Position numbers and translations under genes: made by a program. The notes under the pieces are model-generated. The model was not told the origin of the DNA, searched no databases, and worked only from the letters and a program-made list of their open reading frames with translations. DNA of 64,000 nt, from NCBI GenBank assembly GCA_016200005.1, contig JACQFP010000022.1:124001-188000 (forward strand), given 5' to 3'. Position 1 is the stretch's first letter. Every line of letters starts with the position of its first letter. This document shows, piece after piece, positions 1-11,024 of this stretch. This DNA comes from Verrucomicrobiota bacterium. Lineage in GTDB: Bacteria; Verrucomicrobiota; Verrucomicrobiia; Limisphaerales; PALSA-1396.

Positions 1-1968
1 CAAACGCGCGGCATCGACAAAACGCGGGTCGTCATTGACCAGGTTATCTTCAAATCTGACCAGCGGCTCAGCGGCTTTCTCGATCTCCAGCCACTTGCCG
101 CCCACCGAAACATTGCGCGCCACGGTGTTGCCCTTCGGTGCGCCGGGTTCATCGTTCAGAATGTTCGGCAGTTGCGGATAACGCGCGCGCCACAACGCGT
201 CCTGGTACGGCACGTCCTTCAATCGTTGCGGCATGACGCCGTTGCCTTCGACGGTGTCGCGCATCCAGTTCAAGCCGCGCGCATCCACATGCACCGACGG
301 CTGGCATTCGACAAAAATGTTGTTCTCAACAAGGTTGTCGCGCCCGCCGCCGATGAAGGCCGCCCGGCCCGCGCGATAAAAAACGTTCCCATAAACGGTA
401 ATGCCGCTCGTGGCGTCGTCGAGATAGACCGCCATCGCGCCGTACAAACCCGGCCCGCGGATGTCGTGAAAATAATTATTTCGAATCACCGTGCCGCGCA
501 TCGTCCAGTCGCGCCCCATGTAAAACGCGCCTACGTCGCCCGTCTCGTAGCAGACGCTGTGGATTTCGTTGAACTCGATGAAATGATCGTTGCCGCTCAA
601 TTGGATGGCTTCATGCGGGGCGTCGTGCATCAGGTTGTGGACGACACGATTCCCGACCCCGCTGATGTTCACAGCAGGGCGATAGGTCCGATAAATCCGG
701 CCAAAGTTGTGAATGTGATTGTTCTCTGCGCTGTGGCCTGCTGGCGTCAGCGTTTTCCGATCTCCGCCGTCCAGTGAAATACCGCTCCCAGCCGTCTGAT
801 AAATGTCGCAACCCACCACGCTGTTCGATGTGCCGCCCGCGATTGATACGGCATCACCGCCCGTGTTGCGGATGGTGCAACCGACGATGCGATTCTCCGT
901 TCCGCCAGAAATCGTCACCGCCGTTCCGCGCGTCGCTTCGAGCGTCAGCCCACGAAACGTCACCCACGATGCGTCCTTGAGCGTGAGCAACGTCGGCGTG
1001 ACCGAAACGACGGCGCGACTCTTTTCCAACGGCGACGGCGGCCAGAAGTAAAGAATTCCCGTCTGCCGGTCCAGATACCATTCGCCGGGCGCGTCCAGCT
1101 CGGCCAGGAGATTCAACGCGTAATATCGCTGGCCTTTGCGATAGCCGTAACCGTGGTAAGGCGGCGTGAGGTTGAAGGTGCGCTTGTCGGCGTCGATGGA
1201 CTCGACCTTCTCATAACTGTCCGACCAATCCCAAAACCAATAGCCATGAAGCCAGAAGTCTTTCTCCGCCGCCCACCGTTTGGGGCGATCTCCGTCGTAA
1301 GTGAACTTGCCGATCTTGTCGCCCACGATGCCGTGACTGGTGTACGGCTCTCCCCCAACGACACCAACGATGCGGACAAAGCCGTCGTTCGGCCAACGCG
1401 CCAGGGTCATCGGCTGATCGGCGAAGAACAGTTCCAACCGCTTACCATCGGTCACCGCTTCGCCAAGATCGCTGATGCCAATGGCCTTCAGGTCCGCCTG
1501 GAGAACTTTACCGCGTGCTGATTCTTCCAGCCGATTGAGAACGACTGTATCGGTGACGGGCTTGAAGCCGGTGATTACTTTGCCACCGACCAACCTGACT
1601 TCCTCGCGGCGATAAGCGCGATACACCACGGGAGATTTTTCCGTCCCCGAATCTTCCTGGCTCAGAGCGAACGATTTTTCGAGCGGGTAGAAACCACTGC
1701 GCAGATGAACGGTGACGGCGACTTTGAGTTTGCCGGCGACTTTGAGTTTTCGCAGTTCATCGCGCGCGCGTTCGAGAGTGGCAAACGGCCCATCCGTCTT
1801 TCTTCCGTTGGGCGCTGCGAGTGTTCCTGACCAGGTATCGTTGCCATTGGTGGCGACGTAAAAATCCACTGCTGGCGATGGGAATGGATTTGCCGCAAGA
1901 CAGCAGACGAACGCGAGCAGCAGCGAAAGTCGCTGCAACCGGATTTTGGACGGCAGGAAATTCGTCAT
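1..1968 (-). CDS. Secreted right-handed parallel beta-helix protein (3' end outside window)
   Basis: Reading the minus strand from the ATG at 1968 gives 656 open codons that run off the left edge, so the C-terminus is missing. Residues 1-31 form a signal peptide (basic start, then LSLLLAFVCCLAA). A 'DFYVATNGNDTWSGT' stretch at 35-49 is the usual opening of secreted right-handed beta-helix proteins. From about residue 335 the sequence turns into short Asn/Gly-rich coils (TISGGTENRIVGCTI, VSIAGGTSNSVVGCDI and similar), typical of a parallel beta-helix that binds or cleaves polysaccharide. Family knowledge suggests a pectate-lyase-like fold, but no catalytic residues could be assigned, so the substrate is unknown. 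Its leader sequence is duplicated at 3249-3308. Confidence 0.85.
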   Translation of the reverse strand, partial: MTNFLPSKIRLQRLSLLLAFVCCLAANPFPSPAVDFYVATNGNDTWSGTLAAPNGRKTDGPFATLERARDELRKLKVAGKLKVAVTVHLRSGFYPLEKSFALSQEDSGTEKSPVVYRAYRREEVRLVGGKVITGFKPVTDTVVLNRLEESARGKVLQADLKAIGISDLGEAVTDGKRLELFFADQPMTLARWPNDGFVRIVGVVGGEPYTSHGIVGDKIGKFTYDGDRPKRWAAEKDFWLHGYWFWDWSDSYEKVESIDADKRTFNLTPPYHGYGYRKGQRYYALNLLAELDAPGEWYLDRQTGILYFWPPSPLEKSRAVVSVTPTLLTLKDASWVTFRGLTLEATRGTAVTISGGTENRIVGCTIRNTGGDAVSIAGGTSNSVVGCDIYQTAGSGISLDGGDRKTLTPAGHSAENNHIHNFGRIYRTYRPAVNISGVGNRVVHNLMHDAPHEAIQLSGNDHFIEFNEIHSVCYETGDVGAFYMGRDWTMRGTVIRNNYFHDIRGPGLYGAMAVYLDDATSGITVYGNVFYRAGRAAFIGGGRDNLVENNIFVECQPSVHVDARGLNWMRDTVEGNGVMPQRLKDVPYQDALWRARYPQLPNILNDEPGAPKGNTVARNVSVGGKWLEIEKAAEPLVRFEDNLVNDDPRFVDAARL

Positions 1969-2143
1969 TGAATTGACTGAGGGCTACCATGACTGATTCC
2001 TTTTCTCAAACTTTTTTAACGGTGGTGCGCAACTGATTTCCTTCAGGTTTACGTAATGGCACTTGGACCCAAACTCAGCGACCCGGCCCGCGGGACGCGT
2101 GGAGTGCAACCGGAACGCGATGGCCTGGGGTGTTGCAGCGTGG

Positions 2144-2812
2144 TCAGGCTGCAGGACGCCTCCACGTGGATGTGACCGACACGAGAAAGAAAAGCACGAG
2201 GGTCAGACTCTCAAAGCCATTGAAAAGCGCCGCACCAAGCGGTGCGGGAACCCGATCCGCCACAGGTGCCAGCAGCAAAAGAAGACCGAAATTCGCCAGC
2301 GCCGTCCACCGTGGATAGGAACTCTTGCCCGATAGAACGAGTATCAGAAGGAGGATCGCTCCCAGGTAAGCCGGTCCCTTCGCTAGATCGTAGGTAAGAC
2401 CGTAGTAGTTATGCAGCGCTTCTATTAAGTCCTGCGCAGTCCCGCCGTGAGCCGCCGAATACCTGATGGCCAGAGCCAGGGGAACCACCAGTGCATGAAC
2501 CACGCTCACAGCGACCATCGCTGCACCCAACGCGAAGAACACAACACGCCCAAGGAACGGACTGCGATCTACAAGGTTTTGCCGCACATGCCAGAATCCC
2601 AGCAGACACAGACAACCGGCGATTGGCCCCAGCAAGCCCCCCATGAAGAGGCGCATCTGAGAACTTTCTTGCAGCATCCTGCGCGTTCCCTCGCGGGCGG
2701 TGCCTCCGGCCCCCCAATGGCCGGTCAAGAGCATATCACCAATGAAGAACAAGAGCGCTCCAGCGAGTCCAGCCACTCCCGCCCAGCGCGTATATCTGAG
2801 TTCATTTTGCAT
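2144..2812 (-). CDS. Multi-pass membrane protein, DUF6796-like
   Basis: Predicted 222-residue integral membrane protein. I chose the ATG at 2812 (MQNELRYTRWAGVAGL); an in-frame TTG ten codons earlier is less likely. Hydrophobic segments can be seen near residues 12-30, 57-75, 88-112, 148-165 and 170-215, suggesting six or seven helices. The layout and the 'GDMLLTGHWGAGG' loop after the first helix resemble the DUF6796 family, whose function is unknown; that assignment is from memory and moderate. No operon partner is evident. The flanking genes on the same strand are a beta-helix protein and a DUF3303 protein. Confidence 0.6.
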   Translation of the reverse strand: MQNELRYTRWAGVAGLAGALLFFIGDMLLTGHWGAGGTAREGTRRMLQESSQMRLFMGGLLGPIAGCLCLLGFWHVRQNLVDRSPFLGRVVFFALGAAMVAVSVVHALVVPLALAIRYSAAHGGTAQDLIEALHNYYGLTYDLAKGPAYLGAILLLILVLSGKSSYPRWTALANFGLLLLLAPVADRVPAPLGAALFNGFESLTLVLFFLVSVTSTWRRPAA

Positions 2813-2880
2813 GGTAAGAGTAGCTGCGGCCTGACGACCCAATATGGTTTATCCGAAGCTATTCGTGGCTGGCGAGGACG

Positions 2881-3195
2881 TCACTTGCGTTTGAGTCCAT
2901 CGCGCCAGGCAATCGTTTCCAGTTCGACGCGGACGGCGTCCGCGACGGGAATCACGGGGCGCGCCTCGAATACAAAAGCCGGCCAGGTCGAGCAGACCTT
3001 GTGAACGGTCGCCGGATCGTCGCAGTCCACCAGCATGTGGCCGCCCCACTCGCCTACGCGCACGACAAACACCTCGATCTTGAAATTGGCGGGCGCCTGC
3101 CACTGGGTGAAAACCTCCAGTATCCGCTTCTGGGCATTCTCGTATTCCATGGGCGAACCTTGCGGACGTTCGAACCAACTGATCATGTATTTCAT
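2881..3195 (-). CDS. DUF3303 family protein
   Basis: A 104-residue soluble protein starting MKYMISWFERP. The ATG at 3195 is preceded by a good ribosome-binding site (AAGGAGA, six bases upstream), which is unusual in this window and fixes the start. The opening 'KYMISW' strand, the alternating ferredoxin-like pattern (FKIEVFVVRVGEWGGHMLVDCDD) and the length fit DUF3303, a small alpha/beta-barrel-dimer-like family of unknown function. The residues give no hint of enzymatic activity. It is probably transcribed alone: upstream lies a duplicated leader region (3249-3308) and downstream is a membrane protein gene 68 bases away. Confidence 0.75.
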   Translation of the reverse strand: MKYMISWFERPQGSPMEYENAQKRILEVFTQWQAPANFKIEVFVVRVGEWGGHMLVDCDDPATVHKVCSTWPAFVFEARPVIPVADAVRVELETIAWRDGLKRK

Positions 3196-3248
3196 ATTCT
3201 CCTTTATTGGGTTGAGGTCATCGGAACGGTGACCGGTTAAACGGGAAT

Positions 3249-3308
3249 TTCGTCATTGAATTGGCTGAGGACTACCACGACGGATTCGTTTTCTCAATCT
3301 CTTTTGAA
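3249..3308 (-). repeat. Diverged copy of the beta-helix gene leader
   Basis: This 60-base block matches 1961-2020, the start and upstream region of the beta-helix gene, at roughly 85% by eye. Both begin with TTCGTCATTGAATTG and continue through a conserved TTGAGAAAA (minus strand). The copy keeps the ATG (3256), but that frame stops after 12 codons. It sits directly upstream of the DUF3303 gene in the same orientation, so it may carry a duplicated promoter. Confidence 0.55.
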
Positions 3309-3366
3309 TGGCTTCTAACAGTCATCATTGAGCGGAATTTGAGATCTTCAAGAATCGGAGAAGTTT

Positions 3367-3455
3367 TAACCTGCGGCGGCAACCGCTGGCCGCTTGCCGA
3401 GAAGTCTAAGCGATTCAGAGCGCGCAGAAAGGCCAGCGGTTGCCGCCGCAGGTTA
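3367..3455. repeat. Perfect 25-base inverted repeat abutting the CRISPR array
   Basis: Arms 3367-3391 (TAACCTGCGGCGGCAACCGC...) and 3431-3455 are exact reverse complements, separated by 39 bases. The right arm ends three bases before the last CRISPR repeat begins at 3459. Neither strand shows a T-run after the stem, so it does not look like an ordinary intrinsic terminator. It could be a REP-like palindrome or a structure bounding the array transcript. Confidence 0.8.
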
Positions 3456-3458
3456 GTT

Positions 3459-3774
3459 CCGCCTCACGATTCCTGAAGTCGCGGTGACTGCGCGTTGATC
3501 CGCGCCTCGGCTTCAGTAGCGTCGTCTTCCGCCTCACGATTCCTGAAGTCGCGGTGACTGCGCGTTTCCTTCGGTGGACGGATACCAGAATCCCCCAGCC
3601 GCCTCACGATTCCTGAAGTCGCGGTGACTGCGCGTCAGAATCACCAATGAAATCAAGCCAATGATGACCGCCTCACGATTCCTGAAGTCGCGGTGACTGC
3701 GCGTCATCGGCGTCGCGGCGGCGCTGTTGCTCGGGCTCCGCCTCACGATTCCTGAAGTCGCGGTGACTGCGCGC
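3459..3774 (-). CRISPR. Type V-B CRISPR array, 5 repeats and 4 spacers
   Basis: Five copies of a 36-base repeat at 3459-3494, 3529-3564, 3599-3634, 3668-3703 and 3738-3773 (plus strand starts CCGCCTCACGATTCCTGAAG and ends GGTGACTGCGCG). All five are identical over 36 bases. A 37th base is T after four copies and C after the copy nearest cas2. Spacers are 34, 34, 33 and 34 bases and all different. I place transcription on the minus strand, like the cas genes; the repeat then ends ...GAATCGTGAGGCGG at the spacer junction, close to what I recall for the Opitutaceae V-B repeat. TCAC/GTGA and CGC/GCG pairs allow an internal stem. Confidence 0.95.
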
Positions 3775-3967
3775 CGTTCGTTTTAACTTCCTCTGCCGCA
3801 TCGGTCGGCTCGCGTGTTTACGAGCGCGGTCGTTTTTGGGGAAGCAGTCTTCGGTAATTTCAATTCGGAGTGCACATTCCCTTTCAAAGTCAGCGCAATT
3901 CTTATTGCGAGCGCTGTTGCGGCCGAGCGCCAGCACTGCCGCGCTCGCGCCGCGCCGCCGCGTTCAG

Positions 3968-3997
3968 GCGCAGTCATTCGCGATTTCAAGGATCATG
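3968..3997 (-). ncRNA. Candidate tracrRNA anti-repeat
   Basis: Between cas2 and the array, the plus strand here (GCGCAGTCATTCGCGATTTC...) matches the minus-strand repeat at about 24 of 30 positions, with one inserted base. It is therefore inverted relative to the array. A transcript in the same direction as the array would pair with the crRNA repeat, as a tracrRNA does. Cas12b is known to need a tracrRNA, and in a well-studied locus it is encoded between cas2 and the array. The ends of the RNA cannot be read from sequence. The gap 3775-4082 holds no convincing gene. Confidence 0.6.
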
Positions 3998-4082
3998 TCA
4001 ACCCAATGGCGGAAGGTTGATGGTCGGTGGCCATGGCCGGAATTCATTCAATGCTTTCGAGCGCGACTTGCAAGCCCGAAAA

Positions 4083-4373
4083 TCAAATAATCGTCACGCG
4101 CGTCCGGACGGTATAGGGCAGTCCCATCGCTTCAATGATCAAGCTGGCGTCGTTGGCACTCGGACCAAGCGAGACGAACAACACCTGATCTTCGTCATGT
4201 TTCACAATGGGTTGAAGCGCGGCCTTGAGCATGGCCATTCGCATATCGTCGAGCGGGCACTCGAAGACCGAATACTGCAGCCGCACGCCGAAGCCTTCGA
4301 GCGCGCGTGCCACACGCCGAAGCCGCTTTGGCTCGCAAATATCGTAGCTGACGAGGTAGCGGATTCGAGACAC
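4083..4373 (-). CDS. cas2: CRISPR-associated endonuclease Cas2
   Basis: A 96-residue Cas2, partner of Cas1 in the spacer-integration complex. I place the start at GTG 4373 (VSRIRYLVSYDI); the longer reading adds about 30 residues encoded by low-complexity repeat DNA and would be unusual for Cas2, normally 85-100 residues. The first strand YLVSYDICEPKRLRRVARAL carries the conserved Asp (D11) and is followed by LEGFGVRLQYSVFEC, both family hallmarks. It is the last cas gene, 35 bases downstream of cas4-cas1. No Shine-Dalgarno sequence is visible, so it may rely on transcript continuity with the genes above. Confidence 0.93.
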   Translation of the reverse strand: MSRIRYLVSYDICEPKRLRRVARALEGFGVRLQYSVFECPLDDMRMAMLKAALQPIVKHDEDQVLFVSLGPSANDASLIIEAMGLPYTVRTRVTII

Positions 4374-4408
4374 AGGAGGTTGATGGTTGATGGTTGAAAG
4401 TTGAGTGT

Positions 4409-6211
4409 TCAGCGGGTTGTAAAACCGTGATACGCCGCCGCCTCGCCGCGCACAAACCGCCACAACTGTCGCGCCTGGACTTCCAGCATTCGGCGATACG
4501 CCATCTTGTATTCAAACTCCGGATGGCTGACTTCCGTGTCGCAGCGGCGAAACCACGCTTCCCAAAACGCCTTTCGCCCGCGGTCACTTAGAAACGTGCC
4601 GTTCGCGCCCCGCATGAAATCCTCCGGGCCAAGCTCGCCACGATTCACGAGCGAGATGGCGACGCTGTCCGCAACGAGTGGGCGAAACTCCTCCATCAAA
4701 TCCAGCGCGAGGGCAGGGCGGCCATAGCGCGGTTGGTGCATGAAGCCGAGAAACGGATCCAGCCCGACTGCGTGGCAAACTCCGGTGAGTTCCTTCGCCA
4801 GCATCGAGTAGCCGAGCGACAGCAGCGCGTTCACCGGATCGCGCGGCGGACGCCGATTGCGCCCGCGCCAGTCGAACTTCCAATCCTCCCGCTGCTTGAG
4901 CATGGATTCGAATTGCTCGAAATAAATCGCTGCCGCGTTGCCTTCGATGCCGAGCAGTTCCGTCATCTCGCGCGCGGATTCGGTGGCGTCGCGGAAATTC
5001 ACCATCAACTTCAACACGCGCTCCGGCACGTCGCCGTTGCGCATGAGCATCACGCGCTGGTTGTGAATTTTGGCGCGGATGACTTCTCTCGCAAGTTGCA
5101 GCCGCACGCCGGGCAATTCAAACAGCCGGTATTGCCCGCGCCGCGCGTCCACGCCGCTGGCCGGCAGCGCCCGCAGCAAACCGAGAAACCGCCCCGCCGG
5201 ACTGAAGTAGGAAACATCAATACCCAGGTCCAAACACGTCTCCACCGCCTGCGCCGTGATTTGCACCGCGCCGTAGCAATAGATCGCGCGCACCTGCTGG
5301 CCGGGAATCTTCCGCACGTCCTCGCCCTTCACGCTCACAAGCAACTGGTCGCCGCGCTGCCCGATCTGCGCGCCGGGCGTTTGCACCACCAGCACCTCAC
5401 CGTCGTCGTGCTCCGGGCGTGGTGGTTCGAGCGTCGGTGGTCCTTTGCCCGACTCGGCGGCAAAATCCAACGCTTCGAGAATCCGGTCGCGGACGGCATC
5501 TTCGGTTTGGCCGATGAAACCGAATTGAGTTTGCCCGTCCGTTTCCGCTGGTTTACGTCGCTTCGACCACCACAGCGTTTCGTTGGGCAGACAAATCGGA
5601 TACGCGGAGCAGTAGAGACACCGCGCATCGTTCTTCAACGGTGGCGGGCAGCGACCGCTCGCGGCCACGCCCCGCGCCTCCTCAATCGTGCGGCGGACTT
5701 TGGCAAACAACTCCTCGCTCAACTCCACCGGCACGCGACGTTTGTCCGCCGCGTAATAAATCGCGCCGCGAACCGCGTTGACGCCATGCTCGCGCAACAA
5801 CAGCGCGTGCGCGGCCACCTGCATGGCGTCCGGCTCTTTCGCCACGCGCTCGCCCTCCGCGTTGCGCCGGGCCGAGCCTTTCTTGTAATCAATGATCTCC
5901 GCGCCGTCCGGCCCGCCCTCGACGATGTCCACCACGCCGATGAGGCCGAGCGCTTCGCTTTCCAGCCGCAGACTGCGAATCTTCGCGCCCTCCGGCAGGC
6001 CGAGTTCCTTGGCATCCTCCAGTTTGGACGGCGCGTCCACGTTGCGATGGACATGGCTGCCGGCCACCGTATCCGCGTTCTCCTGAAAAATGTTCTCGAC
6101 CCACTGGAAATAAAACAGCCGCGGGCAATAGATGAAGTTGTGCAGCCGACGCACCGGCATCGGCGGCTGCGCCTCAAGTCCGGCCTGGGTCTGAACCGGG
6201 GCGTCGCTCAT
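4409..6211 (-). CDS. cas4-cas1: Cas4-Cas1 fusion protein
   Basis: A 600-residue fusion. Residues 1-210 are a Cas4 RecB-like nuclease that trims prespacers: Cys29 (NFIYCPRLFYF), D95 (GVVDIVE), the IIDYKKG motif (D108, K110) and the Cys cluster C198, C201, C207 for an iron-sulfur centre. Residues about 270-600 are the Cas1 integrase, with E423 (GIEGNAA), H492 (MHQPRYGRP) and D504 (LALDLMEEFRP) as the metal-binding triad. All key residues are present, so it should be active. The ATG at 6211 overlaps the cas12b stop (ATGA), suggesting translational coupling; a longer upstream reading inside cas12b is rejected. Cas4-Cas1 fusions are typical of type V-B and a few type I loci. Confidence 0.95.
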   Translation of the reverse strand: MSDAPVQTQAGLEAQPPMPVRRLHNFIYCPRLFYFQWVENIFQENADTVAGSHVHRNVDAPSKLEDAKELGLPEGAKIRSLRLESEALGLIGVVDIVEGGPDGAEIIDYKKGSARRNAEGERVAKEPDAMQVAAHALLLREHGVNAVRGAIYYAADKRRVPVELSEELFAKVRRTIEEARGVAASGRCPPPLKNDARCLYCSAYPICLPNETLWWSKRRKPAETDGQTQFGFIGQTEDAVRDRILEALDFAAESGKGPPTLEPPRPEHDDGEVLVVQTPGAQIGQRGDQLLVSVKGEDVRKIPGQQVRAIYCYGAVQITAQAVETCLDLGIDVSYFSPAGRFLGLLRALPASGVDARRGQYRLFELPGVRLQLAREVIRAKIHNQRVMLMRNGDVPERVLKLMVNFRDATESAREMTELLGIEGNAAAIYFEQFESMLKQREDWKFDWRGRNRRPPRDPVNALLSLGYSMLAKELTGVCHAVGLDPFLGFMHQPRYGRPALALDLMEEFRPLVADSVAISLVNRGELGPEDFMRGANGTFLSDRGRKAFWEAWFRRCDTEVSHPEFEYKMAYRRMLEVQARQLWRFVRGEAAAYHGFTTR

Positions 6212-9200
6212 GTGTACTGCATCGGAACATCGTCCTCTTGGTCCGGAGTTGCGACTACCTGCGGCGTGTGATCCCCGGGTTGAAATCCCCATTGCCGCAT
6301 CCGCTCACTATTGATCTCGCGGCAGCGGGTCCATTCCCGGTCCCGAACTGATTTCCATAGGCCGCGCCCGCTGGCTAAGGGAAGCGGTAAGTCCCCAATG
6401 GCCGCTTTGTCAAACATCGCCAACTTCCCAAGATCCACAAAGAAATTTGGCTTTCCACCCTCGCGAGCCAGGGCCGCTTGTTGCGTTTCATTGACCATCT
6501 TGATGTCGGGCGGTTTGCTTCCCCAGCGTGCCTTCTCGCGTTTGCTTTCCGCACGAACCTGGAACTTCCCGTCTGTCGTTTCTGAGCGAATGCGGACGTG
6601 TACCGCGTGCGCGTCCGGCGCGGCGATGGCGCGCAGGCCAAGATTGATGGCGGCATTGATGTCCGCTTGCATGACGGGGAGCTTTGAAGCGGCCGGCACG
6701 AAGAGAGGACCGAGCGGCATGGGCACGAGCAATGTCCGCGGAACCTTGTTCGCCCGGCCTTCGTTTGCTTTTGCCAGCCAGTCAAACAACTCGCGGGTGG
6801 ATTCATCGCCATCAGCCAAACGCTTCTTCCACGGGAATGTATTACGGTCTTCGTTCCGAATCTCCCGTGCGCGAAAGCCCGCCACGCCCGTCCGCGAGCA
6901 GAACTTGGAGGAGTAGGCGGCGGGAGTTTCCAGCACGGGGATACCGAACGCCTGACAAAGTTCCTTCACCTTGTCCGTTACCTGGCGGTGGCACCACTTC
7001 ATCAATCGCAGGTTTTCCTTTCGCTCGCGTGTCTGTGAACTCAGGTAAGCCGACAGATCTTCGAGGACGACGAAGTCCACAGGCTTACGCCCCGGGATCG
7101 GCTCATACTCGCCATGCAAATCCTTCGCTGCTCGCTCCTCCACAGAAGCCTGATGCGGACGCAAGCGCACCCCGAGCGCCTGCGCGACAATCATGTGTGC
7201 TGTCTGGTTCACGCGCTGCTCCTTGGTGCGGTCGAGCTTGTCCAAAATATCCGGGCAGCAATCCGGCAGCGGATCGTTGCGCATCTCGCGCCCGCTCTTG
7301 GGCGCGGTTCCTGGTTCGCGTTGGAGCGCGCGATTGAGCGATTGAAAGCGGCGGCGCAATTCCTCCAGTTGTTCGATACGTTCAAGCGAAAGTCCGCGTT
7401 GCCCCGCAATCAGCGGTTTGTGATCGGCGGCTTCCACCATTTCCACCAGATGGCAGCCCTTCTTCCCGAATTCCTGGTCCGGATGGTTGTTCCACGCCCA
7501 TTTGCGTCCGCGTAGGGGCACGCAGCGATTGGCGATGCGAACGAGTTGTTCGGGCAGGAATGAGTTAAGTCGTTCGATCTCCGCTTTGATGAGCGTTAGG
7601 AGCGGGCCAACCTCCTTGGCTTCCGCACGCGGTCGCAAATCGGTTCGTCGTTCCTGTTCCAGCAATTCCGCGAGAGCACGGTCGCGTTTACTTTCATCAC
7701 CCAGCATCCAGAGCCAGCGATGGCAGCGTGCCAGCCAGCCTTGCGCCCGCCCAAACACGCGGAGCAACTTGCCGTTCAACTCGGGGAACGACCATGTCTT
7801 GGGGTCGTCGCCTATCCAAGACGTGACAACTTCCTCTGCGTTCAGCTTTCCCTCCTTTGCATCGGCTACGAAATCGGCAAGCCGGCGAATAAGGTCTCGC
7901 GTCTCTTTCCATTCGTCATCCGTCGCAAGGCGTCCCTTTTCTCCGGAAAGTTCCTCCTGCCATTTGCCATCGCGCCACACCCGCGCATCTTCGCCCGGCA
8001 GGCGCAAGACTCCGGCGGCGGCGAGGCCGGCGCTCCAAGTCTTGCCATTCGTGTTGCCCAATTCTCGCGCCGGTTTCTTGCCCCAGCCCGCATTTGCTCG
8101 GACATCCAGCAACGCATAGGCGCCCGCGTCTCGTTGTCCGAGGTCAACCGGCAAACAAGTAAAGGCATCCAACGCCTCCCACCACGGACCCGCCTTGCGC
8201 AACGCGGGTGTTTCCTCTTGCGGCCAGCGCAGGAAAAACTTTTGTTCGTCGTCACCTTTGCCGAAAGCGACGAACTGGCTAACCCACCGTGCTTGTGAGC
8301 CGACAGCTTTGTGCAAGGCACTCGGGTCGAGCGACACCGGAAAGTTGAGCAAATGCCGGAACTCCTCGCCCTGCCGGTTGGGCATCAGAGAAACCGCGCA
8401 TTTGGAAAAATCTTGCGATGTGGGTTCGGGAAGATTCAAGGCCGCCATCATCGGTTGCAACCACGCCGCACGTTCGAGGTCTTCGCCACTCGCTTTGCGC
8501 AGTCCATCTCGGCTCAAACGCGGCGCGGAGTAATGCAACCGCACCCGCGTTTCTTTCCAGATGCCATTGGTGTTCACGGCCAACGATACATCCACGCCAA
8601 ACCCGTGAGGTGTTGCGTTCGGCACATGCTCCGACTTCGCTCGGCCCATGAGGTCAGAAAACATGAACAGCCGGCGCGAGTGTTCCGCGTCTGCCGGTGT
8701 AAACCTGATGGGTTCCTTGAGGCGCGCAATGTCCGTCTGCAATTCCAGGTAGTGCTGGTAATCCTCGACGATGCGCTCTGAGAACCCGGCCTTTTGCTGC
8801 GCAGCGGCTGTCGCTTCGTCCGGCGTCGCCCACAAGCACCAGTAATCTTTTTCGAGCAGCTTCTTGAACAATGTCACGCTGCCGATGCGCTCCTTGTTCT
8901 CCGCCTGGAACTCGTCGGTAGCAGCAATCAGTTTTCCATAAACTTCGTCCGAGAACGGTTGGCCTGGCTTCACCTTCTTGTTCCACAGCGCGACGAGGTC
9001 GCGATAGCAGCGCAGCGTGCGGGGGTGCAGCCCATACGCCACGCTCTCACCCTCAGCCAGATAATGTTCCTCTGCCAGTTCCACTTCGATCAGATGCTTC
9101 ACTTTCTCAAAACGAGGGTCGCCCTTGAGGACGGCTGGCAGCTCTTCCTCGACGTGCTCCGCGCGCTTGAGCTTGGTGGCCTTGCCATCCATCCAATCCA

Positions 9201-10443
9201 GTTCTGCCTGTAACCCGGCGGCTTTCTGCAAACGTTCCTGCGTTTTCAGACGAAACTGGTTTGCTGTCTTCAACGCCTCCTTGAAGGCGGCGATGTCGAA
9301 CTCGCTCCACAGCAGATCGACCGGGCCTTTGCCACCCCAACAGGGCAGGCTGGTAAAAGCAGGAAACACATAACCGCGATTGCCGCGCGCAAGTTTGATC
9401 GGGTCGTCACCCATGCTAACAAGTCGGTCCGCTGTGCCCGCTGCGACTTTGGCTGTCTGCCGAGCCGGAGACTTCGGAGCAGGGAATGAGTCGCGAAGGA
9501 CTTCAAACGTAACGAGTGAGCGTTCGACGTACGCGAACAAGAGGTAGGCGAAAAACCGGCGCTTCAGCGCTTCCTTGTTGATACTGCCGCCGGCATACGC
9601 CGGGTACGCAGCCGAGTCTGGCAGCGCTCCGATCTTCTTCTCAAGATGTTCCGCAATTGCAGTCAGTCGGGAATCCTTCCCTTTTAGCCAAGCCAGCGCC
9701 TCCAACAATTTGTCTCGTGCTTCCTTCCCTGACACTGGATTCGCGTTCGGAATCGGGTTGGCGAAGAAGCCGAATTTCAGTTTGGCGGCAATGGCATCAG
9801 GATTTCGTGCGGATTCAGGATCATGCAGCAGCGCCGGCAAAGTGGTCTTGGCTTCAGCCTTCTGCAAGGATGCGGCTCCGCGTGGGAACTGTCCGTTGTA
9901 GCCGGGCCAGCAGAGCCGGGGCAGATAACCGCGCCCTTCTTGTTGAATCGCCGAATCTCCACCCAGGTCTTCGACCAACGCATCGACCGCCAGTTGCAAC
10001 AATTCCTTGCTTGATGAATTCCCATCGAGGGTAGCGGCGAAAGCGTCTTCGATGGTTGCTTGGGTTTTGCCGGGCAACACGTACGGCATAATCACGGCGC
10101 ACAGTCCTCTGAAGCGTCTGCTCTTGCGGATGAAGGGTTGCCACACATCCGCAAGCTGCTTCCGCAATTTCCCCATCGGGGTAGTTTCATCACTGGCCAG
10201 CGCAGCAAGGCAGAACAGATAATAATTCACCGCGTCCTGAAAGAGTTGGTGGTGCTGCCAGAGGGCGGCTTGCCATTTGGCTTTCGCCTGCTTGGGGTCG
10301 TCAGCGAACGGCAGCCACGGATTCTGATTTCGACACCTCACCTCGGTCCTCTCCCCGGTCGAGGCGGAGAGGATGCGCGGCGCGTGCTGGTCCGGGTTGG
10401 CGATTTCGACGTTGGTGACCTTGCCTTGGTAGATGCGGTTCAT
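6208..10443 (-). CDS. cas12b: CRISPR-associated effector Cas12b (C2c1), unusually long
   Basis: The 1411-residue RNA-guided DNA endonuclease of the locus. The RuvC-like nuclease is split as in other Cas12 proteins: motif I PVDLGQRDAG (D767), motif II VDFVVLEDLSAYL (E1128) and motif III MQADINAAINLG (D1261). The stretch after motif II (ENLRLMKWCHR, AAYSSKFCSRTGVAGFRAREI) is characteristic of Cas12b and separates it from Cas12a. There is no HNH motif. Compared with Alicyclobacillus Cas12b (about 1130 residues, from memory), the extra length is mostly before motif I (about 200 residues) and between motifs I and II (about 80). Residues about 22-38 (RILSASTGERTEVR) are encoded by a palindromic repeat also found upstream. 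Start ATG 10443 has no clear ribosome-binding site. Confidence 0.93.
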   Translation of the reverse strand: MNRIYQGKVTNVEIANPDQHAPRILSASTGERTEVRCRNQNPWLPFADDPKQAKAKWQAALWQHHQLFQDAVNYYLFCLAALASDETTPMGKLRKQLADVWQPFIRKSRRFRGLCAVIMPYVLPGKTQATIEDAFAATLDGNSSSKELLQLAVDALVEDLGGDSAIQQEGRGYLPRLCWPGYNGQFPRGAASLQKAEAKTTLPALLHDPESARNPDAIAAKLKFGFFANPIPNANPVSGKEARDKLLEALAWLKGKDSRLTAIAEHLEKKIGALPDSAAYPAYAGGSINKEALKRRFFAYLLFAYVERSLVTFEVLRDSFPAPKSPARQTAKVAAGTADRLVSMGDDPIKLARGNRGYVFPAFTSLPCWGGKGPVDLLWSEFDIAAFKEALKTANQFRLKTQERLQKAAGLQAELDWMDGKATKLKRAEHVEEELPAVLKGDPRFEKVKHLIEVELAEEHYLAEGESVAYGLHPRTLRCYRDLVALWNKKVKPGQPFSDEVYGKLIAATDEFQAENKERIGSVTLFKKLLEKDYWCLWATPDEATAAAQQKAGFSERIVEDYQHYLELQTDIARLKEPIRFTPADAEHSRRLFMFSDLMGRAKSEHVPNATPHGFGVDVSLAVNTNGIWKETRVRLHYSAPRLSRDGLRKASGEDLERAAWLQPMMAALNLPEPTSQDFSKCAVSLMPNRQGEEFRHLLNFPVSLDPSALHKAVGSQARWVSQFVAFGKGDDEQKFFLRWPQEETPALRKAGPWWEALDAFTCLPVDLGQRDAGAYALLDVRANAGWGKKPARELGNTNGKTWSAGLAAAGVLRLPGEDARVWRDGKWQEELSGEKGRLATDDEWKETRDLIRRLADFVADAKEGKLNAEEVVTSWIGDDPKTWSFPELNGKLLRVFGRAQGWLARCHRWLWMLGDESKRDRALAELLEQERRTDLRPRAEAKEVGPLLTLIKAEIERLNSFLPEQLVRIANRCVPLRGRKWAWNNHPDQEFGKKGCHLVEMVEAADHKPLIAGQRGLSLERIEQLEELRRRFQSLNRALQREPGTAPKSGREMRNDPLPDCCPDILDKLDRTKEQRVNQTAHMIVAQALGVRLRPHQASVEERAAKDLHGEYEPIPGRKPVDFVVLEDLSAYLSSQTRERKENLRLMKWCHRQVTDKVKELCQAFGIPVLETPAAYSSKFCSRTGVAGFRAREIRNEDRNTFPWKKRLADGDESTRELFDWLAKANEGRANKVPRTLLVPMPLGPLFVPAASKLPVMQADINAAINLGLRAIAAPDAHAVHVRIRSETTDGKFQVRAESKREKARWGSKPPDIKMVNETQQAALAREGGKPNFFVDLGKLAMFDKAAIGDLPLPLASGRGLWKSVRDREWTRCREINSERMRQWGFQPGDHTPQVVATPDQEDDVPMQYT
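10331..10380. repeat. Palindromic repeat inside the 5' end of cas12b
   Basis: CGACACCTCACC...CCTCTCC...GGAGAGG...GCGCGG matches the intergenic copy at 10659-10708 at about 80% by eye. The stem CCTCTCC/GGAGAGG is kept in both. It is translated in frame as part of Cas12b. Its peptide (LSASTGER) resembles those made by the same family elsewhere in the window (LSPSDGER at 43512-43574, LSASDGER at 40011-40073). Confidence 0.75.
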
Positions 10444-10546
10444 TCGCTGCTCGGTTGAGAGTTGAGTGGTTCTTTGCGCGCTTTTGCGGTCAACGTTTCC
10501 AGACTTTCTTTGCCGATTCTCGCCGACGGTAGCGAAGAACTGGACT

Positions 10547-10640
10547 GGTTGAAAGTTGAGGGGTTGTTTGAAGGTTGAGGGTTGAGGGTTGAGGGGTTGT
10601 TTGAAGGTTGAGAGTTGAGGGTTGAGGGTTGAGAGTTCAG
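10547..10640. repeat. TTGAGGG-type heptamer array
   Basis: Imperfect tandem units GGTTGAGGGTTGAGGGTTGA and variants. A block GAGGGGTTGTTTGAAGGTTGA occurs twice inside. Related short arrays occur at 10791-10840, 4381-4408, 61680-61714 and 62181-62213. Confidence 0.8.
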
Positions 10641-10658
10641 ACGGACGAAGAAGCGAAT

Positions 10659-10708
10659 CGACACCTCACCCTTGATCCCTCTCCCAGATCGATGCGGAGA
10701 GGGCGCGG
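10659..10708. repeat. Intergenic copy of the repeat found in cas12b
   Basis: CGACACCTCACCCTTGATCC... with a CTCTCCC/GGAGAGG stem; aligns with 10331-10380 inside cas12b. Confidence 0.75.
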
Positions 10709-11024
10709 TACGCTCTGTGTGTTCTTTTGCGGCCAATTCAGTTCGCGTATTCATCGTGTTTCGCGGTTGATGGGAATCGACAAGACAGGAAGTTGGGAGT
10801 TGAGGGTTGAACTTGGAGGGTTGAGAGTTGAGTGGGTTGATACCTGTTTTCCCGGTCGTGGACAATCTCAATTGTCTGATCTTTATGCGCGTGTCTGCGC
10901 CCAGACCGGTCGCCGAAAAGGCGCAAGGCAATGGGGTTGACAACCATTTCGGGCGGGGCGGATGATGCGCCATAACCAAACTGCCCAGCGTCATAATGCA
11001 AATGTCGATCGTAAATCCACTACC

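Follow-up and report, generated by a model that had tools for sequence, protein, structure and literature searches.

The window (the whole stretch of 64 kb analysed here, which belongs to a 6.5-Mb Verrucomicrobia genome) carries a type V-B system composed of Cas12b, a Cas4/Cas1 fusion, Cas2 and a five-repeat array. On the minus strand, the order is cas12b, cas4/cas1, cas2, a gap and the array:

6208–10443, minus strand: cas12b, 1411 aa, with the RuvC motifs VDLGQR (766), VVLEDLS (1125) and QADINAA (1259)
4409–6211, minus strand: cas4/cas1 fusion (NF049935.1, E 4.8e-184)
4083–4463, minus strand: cas2 (TIGR01573)
3459–3773, minus strand: CRISPR array, five 36-nt repeats and four spacers of 33–34 nt

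The assignment to type V-B is based on the effector, a Cas12b that possesses the RuvC catalytic motifs and is matched over residues 61–1377 by the NCBIfam model NF033949.1 (E 6.8e-227), and on its neighbourhood, with the Cas4/Cas1 fusion and Cas2 beside it and an array. Among named relatives, a Verrucomicrobia subdivision 3 MAG (L013) has the nearest Cas12b, with 69% identity in the best segment. Searches of viral_contigs gave no exact match to any of the four spacers and, with the Cas12b of the window as query, no relative. A perfect 25-nt inverted repeat (3367–3391/3431–3455) lies just past the leader-distal end of the array, and its core has no other copy in the genome with up to two mismatches allowed. 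The window also contains a 62-nt direct repeat (1956–2017 and 3244–3305, 87% identical).

The initial annotation had proposed that the gap between cas2 and the array holds the anti-repeat of a Cas12b tracrRNA. The elements recognized or predicted there are:

4046–4073, minus strand: promoter-like pair TTGCAA (4073–4068)/TTGAAT (4051–4046), predicted start at about 4039
3967–4043, minus strand: tracrRNA core, delimited by a covariance model from whose training the window was excluded
4029–4038, minus strand: stem-loop 1 (GGC-CATG-GCC)
3998–4020, minus strand: stem-loop 2 (TCAACC-TTCCGCCATTG-GGTTGA), which presents the short anti-repeat
4008–4012, minus strand: short anti-repeat CCGCC, pairing with the repeat 3' end GGCGG (pseudoknot)
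3968–3997, minus strand: long anti-repeat, pairing with repeat positions 2–30

With a single 1-nt insertion in the alignment, 24 of the 30 positions of the plus strand at 3968–3997 (GCGCAGTCATTCGCGATTTCAAGGATCATG) are identical to the minus-strand reading of the repeat (CGCGCAGTCACCGCGACTTCAGGAATCGTGAGGCGG), which bears out the inverted match of about this size noticed in the initial annotation. A minus-strand transcript would therefore carry an anti-repeat to the crRNA, in a duplex whose other differences are two G-U pairs, three mismatches and one bulge. Because of the insertion, ungapped alignment misses the site (only 11–17 of 30 positions match, which is not significant), and a gap must be allowed. 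Among 10,658 segments of 60 nt covering both strands of the 64 kb (mean duplex energy -20.0, sd 4.7 kcal/mol), the best partner of the crRNA repeat outside the array is the minus-strand transcript of 3941–4000 (-39.2 kcal/mol), so that no better anti-repeat was found elsewhere, albeit by a thin margin over the runners-up (-38.7 and -38.3 kcal/mol). Compared with dinucleotide shuffles, the z value of the gap is -3.9 when the minus strand is read and -4.8 when the plus strand is read. As the margin over other partners is small, the single sequence is suggestive, not conclusive. Furthermore, either strand of 3968–3997 can pair with the repeat of matching sense, and the evidence from this locus makes a moderate case for an anti-repeat while leaving its strand undecided. 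Rfam gave no match within positions 1–11000.

Comparison with relatives goes far beyond this single locus. Cas12b searches over the phylum, order and class identified 37 matching genomes, including that of the window, and loci were retrieved around most of the hits. The element could be placed in 24 of these (that of the window and 23 further type V-B loci of Verrucomicrobiota), in which cas2 and the array are adjacent. In the cas direction, all share the same plan of the gap: stem-loop 1 and a run that reads ACCGACCA or a variant of it come first, followed by stem-loop 2, which contains TCCGCCATTGG or a variant of it, and finally by the anti-repeat. The repeats diverge strongly between loci (for example GTTCCACTCGCTGGATTTCAAACCATGTTGAGGCGG in L034 vs CGCGCAGTCACCGCGACTTCAGGAATCGTGAGGCGG in the window), and every anti-repeat tracks its own repeat. 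Pairs of anti-repeat and repeat from the same locus have a mean energy of -32.5 kcal/mol vs -20.5 (sd 1.2) when permuted, none of 20,000 permutations being as low, with the reservation that the permutation and shuffle controls leave some relatedness among loci in the statistics. In a joint tracrRNA-repeat alignment of 23 sequences, 87.7% of the cells are paired, vs 73.0% after shuffling and 40–52% when slid by one to three columns, and the covariation score is 0.458 vs 0.191 shuffled and at most 0.216 slid. Two-sided changes affect 25 of the 33 pairs; the 109 cells concerned, vs 33 after shuffling (23 loci), provide the covariation among related loci that the initial annotation had suggested looking for. 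A phylogenetic artefact is unlikely because of the slide control and of the breadth of the repeats. Conservation of the long anti-repeat through covariation is what is expected of a Cas12b tracrRNA, and the proposal made for the gap is thereby supported by the same co-varying element in 24 loci.

The folded parts co-vary as well. All three pairs of stem-loop 1, the probable 5' end of the tracrRNA, change on both sides (91.3% paired), as do all six pairs of stem-loop 2 (95.7% paired). The short helix CCGCC/GGCGG is paired in 100% of the cells of the 23 joint sequences and has undergone a compensatory change in a single locus, L047 (CCGTC/GACGG). The short anti-repeat is thus carried by a stem-loop and pairs with the 3' end of the repeat, which corresponds to the pseudoknot of Cas12b tracrRNAs. 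It is the short anti-repeat and the two stem-loops, which had escaped the initial annotation, that make the candidate element specifically Cas12b-like. Three relatives present particular arrangements or resemblances: L037 (G267:C11) has the tracrRNA unit in three tandem copies, each with an anti-repeat, in the gap between cas2 and the array; L041 (G198:C64) has a second, degenerate CGCCATTG hairpin after the tracrRNA; and the tracrRNA of L051 is nearly identical to that of the window.

A covariance model built from 21 other loci, the window and its near copy L051 being left out, matches positions 4043–3967 of the minus strand with 80.3 bits (E 9.3e-22), i.e. between cas2 and the array. It found no second good site in the whole 6.5-Mb genome, and its best plus-strand hits in the window, which are the array repeats themselves, do not exceed 14.8 bits. 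The model also recovers tracrRNAs on which it had not been trained, those of L051, L048, L075 and L036, the last one being the same copy as in L038. Taken together, covariation and model search demonstrate, as far as comparison of sequences goes, the position, the strand, the conserved stems and both repeat/anti-repeat helices of the predicted RNA. Two other loci deserve mention here. In L080 (G854:C71, 49–1936), whose array is located upstream of cas12b and does not follow cas2, the model detects no tracrRNA. L048 (G446:C62, 10020–10420) retains an intact tracrRNA and leader motifs with a single repeat left and cas4/cas1 matched in separate pieces, and looks like a decaying locus.

The main alternative is that the functional transcript is read from the plus strand, its anti-repeat, in reverse orientation, working with a plus-strand crRNA. 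The initial annotation had noted that G-U counts slightly favour this strand, which holds for the window, where the duplex energy is also lower (-48.6 kcal/mol vs -45.0 on the minus strand). Across the family, however, where an anti-repeat departs from the complement of its repeat, the substitution allows a G-U pair in 67 cases for the cas direction vs 31 for the opposite one, the covariance model matches the minus strand alone, and the promoter-like hexamers, like the 3' ends of the repeats (GAGGCGG or TGGCGG), are all oriented in the cas direction. A functional plus-strand transcript is therefore very improbable. The minus-only match and the family G-U balance settle, if by indirect means, that the predicted tracrRNA is read from the minus strand, as are the cas genes and the array, in agreement with what gene order and repeat ends had suggested in the initial annotation. 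A decayed, inverted leftover repeat devoid of function would account for the six differences from the repeat, but decay would not maintain a copy that follows its own repeat by compensatory changes in 24 loci and that is always joined to two conserved stem-loops, so the probability of this reading is negligible. A chance match in GC-rich DNA, which the near-equal duplex energies of other segments and the non-significant ungapped match might evoke, is just as negligible, since a model built without the window hits exactly this site (E 9e-22).

The element at 3968–3997 is thus almost certainly part of a Cas12b (type V-B) tracrRNA gene read from the minus strand in the direction of the cas genes and the array, and predicted to be expressed. 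A -10-like hexamer ends 31–38 nt before CCGCC in 20 of the 24 loci, a best-of-many match; its position, weak evidence by itself, suggests a start near 4039. The promoter-like pair at 4046–4073 matches at 8 of 12 positions, and a stricter promoter scan found none there. No T-run terminator follows the anti-repeat on the minus strand; terminator-like hairpins at 3760–3829 belong to the plus strand and were set aside, as this orientation does not suit an RNA read from the minus strand.

The short RNA would start just past cas2 and fold into stem-loop 1, then stem-loop 2, whose loop would offer CCGCC, followed by the anti-repeat 3997–3968. The latter would pair with the crRNA repeat over about 29 positions, in a bulged duplex, while CCGCC would pair with GGCGG, the five bases that close the repeat on the guide side, to generate a pseudoknot bound by Cas12b. 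By analogy with established Cas12b biology, the RNA would be transcribed, processed by a host RNase and loaded into Cas12b, which, with crRNA and tracrRNA, would cut matching DNA.

This organization can be compared with that of known systems. According to published work, Cas12b tracrRNAs are encoded between cas12b and the array (PMC6342934), and the Cas12b RNA comprises a long bulged duplex and a second, short one of 5 bp that takes part in a pseudoknot (PMC11246509). The tracrRNAs of the Bacillus proteins BhCas12b and BthCas12b (PMC11246509) resemble that of the window, according to their published description, by the long bulged duplex and the 5-bp pseudoknot adjoining the guide, the short pairing of the window being CCGCC/GGCGG. 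The plasmid locus of Alicyclobacillus dauci (NZ_CP104065.1, L087), kin of the characterised AacCas12b, shows the same order as the window: cas2, stem-loop 1, stem-loop 2 with a short anti-repeat, long anti-repeat, leader motifs and array. Its tracrRNA-like RNA has a short helix GTGCC/GGCAC and a long duplex of -43.5 kcal/mol; however, stem-loop 2 is longer, the sequences differ and the Verrucomicrobiota covariance model gives no match. L013, L044, L045, L051 and other Verrucomicrobiota V-B loci share the RNA, gene order and leader motifs of the window, whereas their repeats and anti-repeats differ.

Comparison of the loci also revealed motifs in the leader:

3941–3948, minus strand: inverted leader site GCGAGCGC
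3906–3914, minus strand: leader motif 1 GCGCTCGCA
3819–3827, minus strand: leader motif 2 GCGCTCGTA, starting 52–55 nt before the first repeat in the compared loci

In Verrucomicrobiota and Alicyclobacillus, GCGAG and two CTCGC sites are found at near-fixed spacing from one another and from the first repeat. In 26 of 26 loci, including A. dauci and the divergent L042, CTCG comes 35–37 nt after a CGAG (which reads CGAT in L052), and a CTCG starts at -53 to -49 of the first repeat in 24 of 26 (0.5 expected by shuffling). An RNA hairpin formed by GCGAG...CTCGC was considered and a DNA motif preferred, as the flanks do not clearly co-vary above chance; a DNA site fits because the letters are conserved and not co-varying. 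Tentatively, and with somewhat less than even confidence, these sites may constitute an undescribed V-B leader element (GCGAG, CTCGC, CTCGC) that would dock Cas4/Cas1-Cas2 or a host DNA-bending protein at the leader end. The likeliest guess for its putative role is spacer acquisition, since it stands at an almost constant distance from the leader-repeat junction. As the first site overlaps the anti-repeat in some loci, the tracrRNA gene and the adaptation signal would, if this reading is true, share DNA. Searches of an open-access library of papers gave no description of a V-B leader motif, and the passages retrieved from a V-B adaptation study (PMC9419969) speak of a leader without any motif in it.

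The tracrRNA is ordinary in kind; comparison with more than 20 relatives has established on which strand it lies and how it is folded, and indicates where it probably starts. It yields a testable guide RNA for a large Cas12b (1411 aa) of a little-studied clade, together with more than 20 related tracrRNAs, each with a known partner repeat. The covariation between repeat and anti-repeat separates the parts kept in sequence (CCGCC/GGCGG, and the ACCGACCA linker in most loci) from those in which pairing alone is kept. Should the leader motif at fixed distance prove real, it would be relevant to the way in which the spacer insertion point is recognised in type V-B systems.
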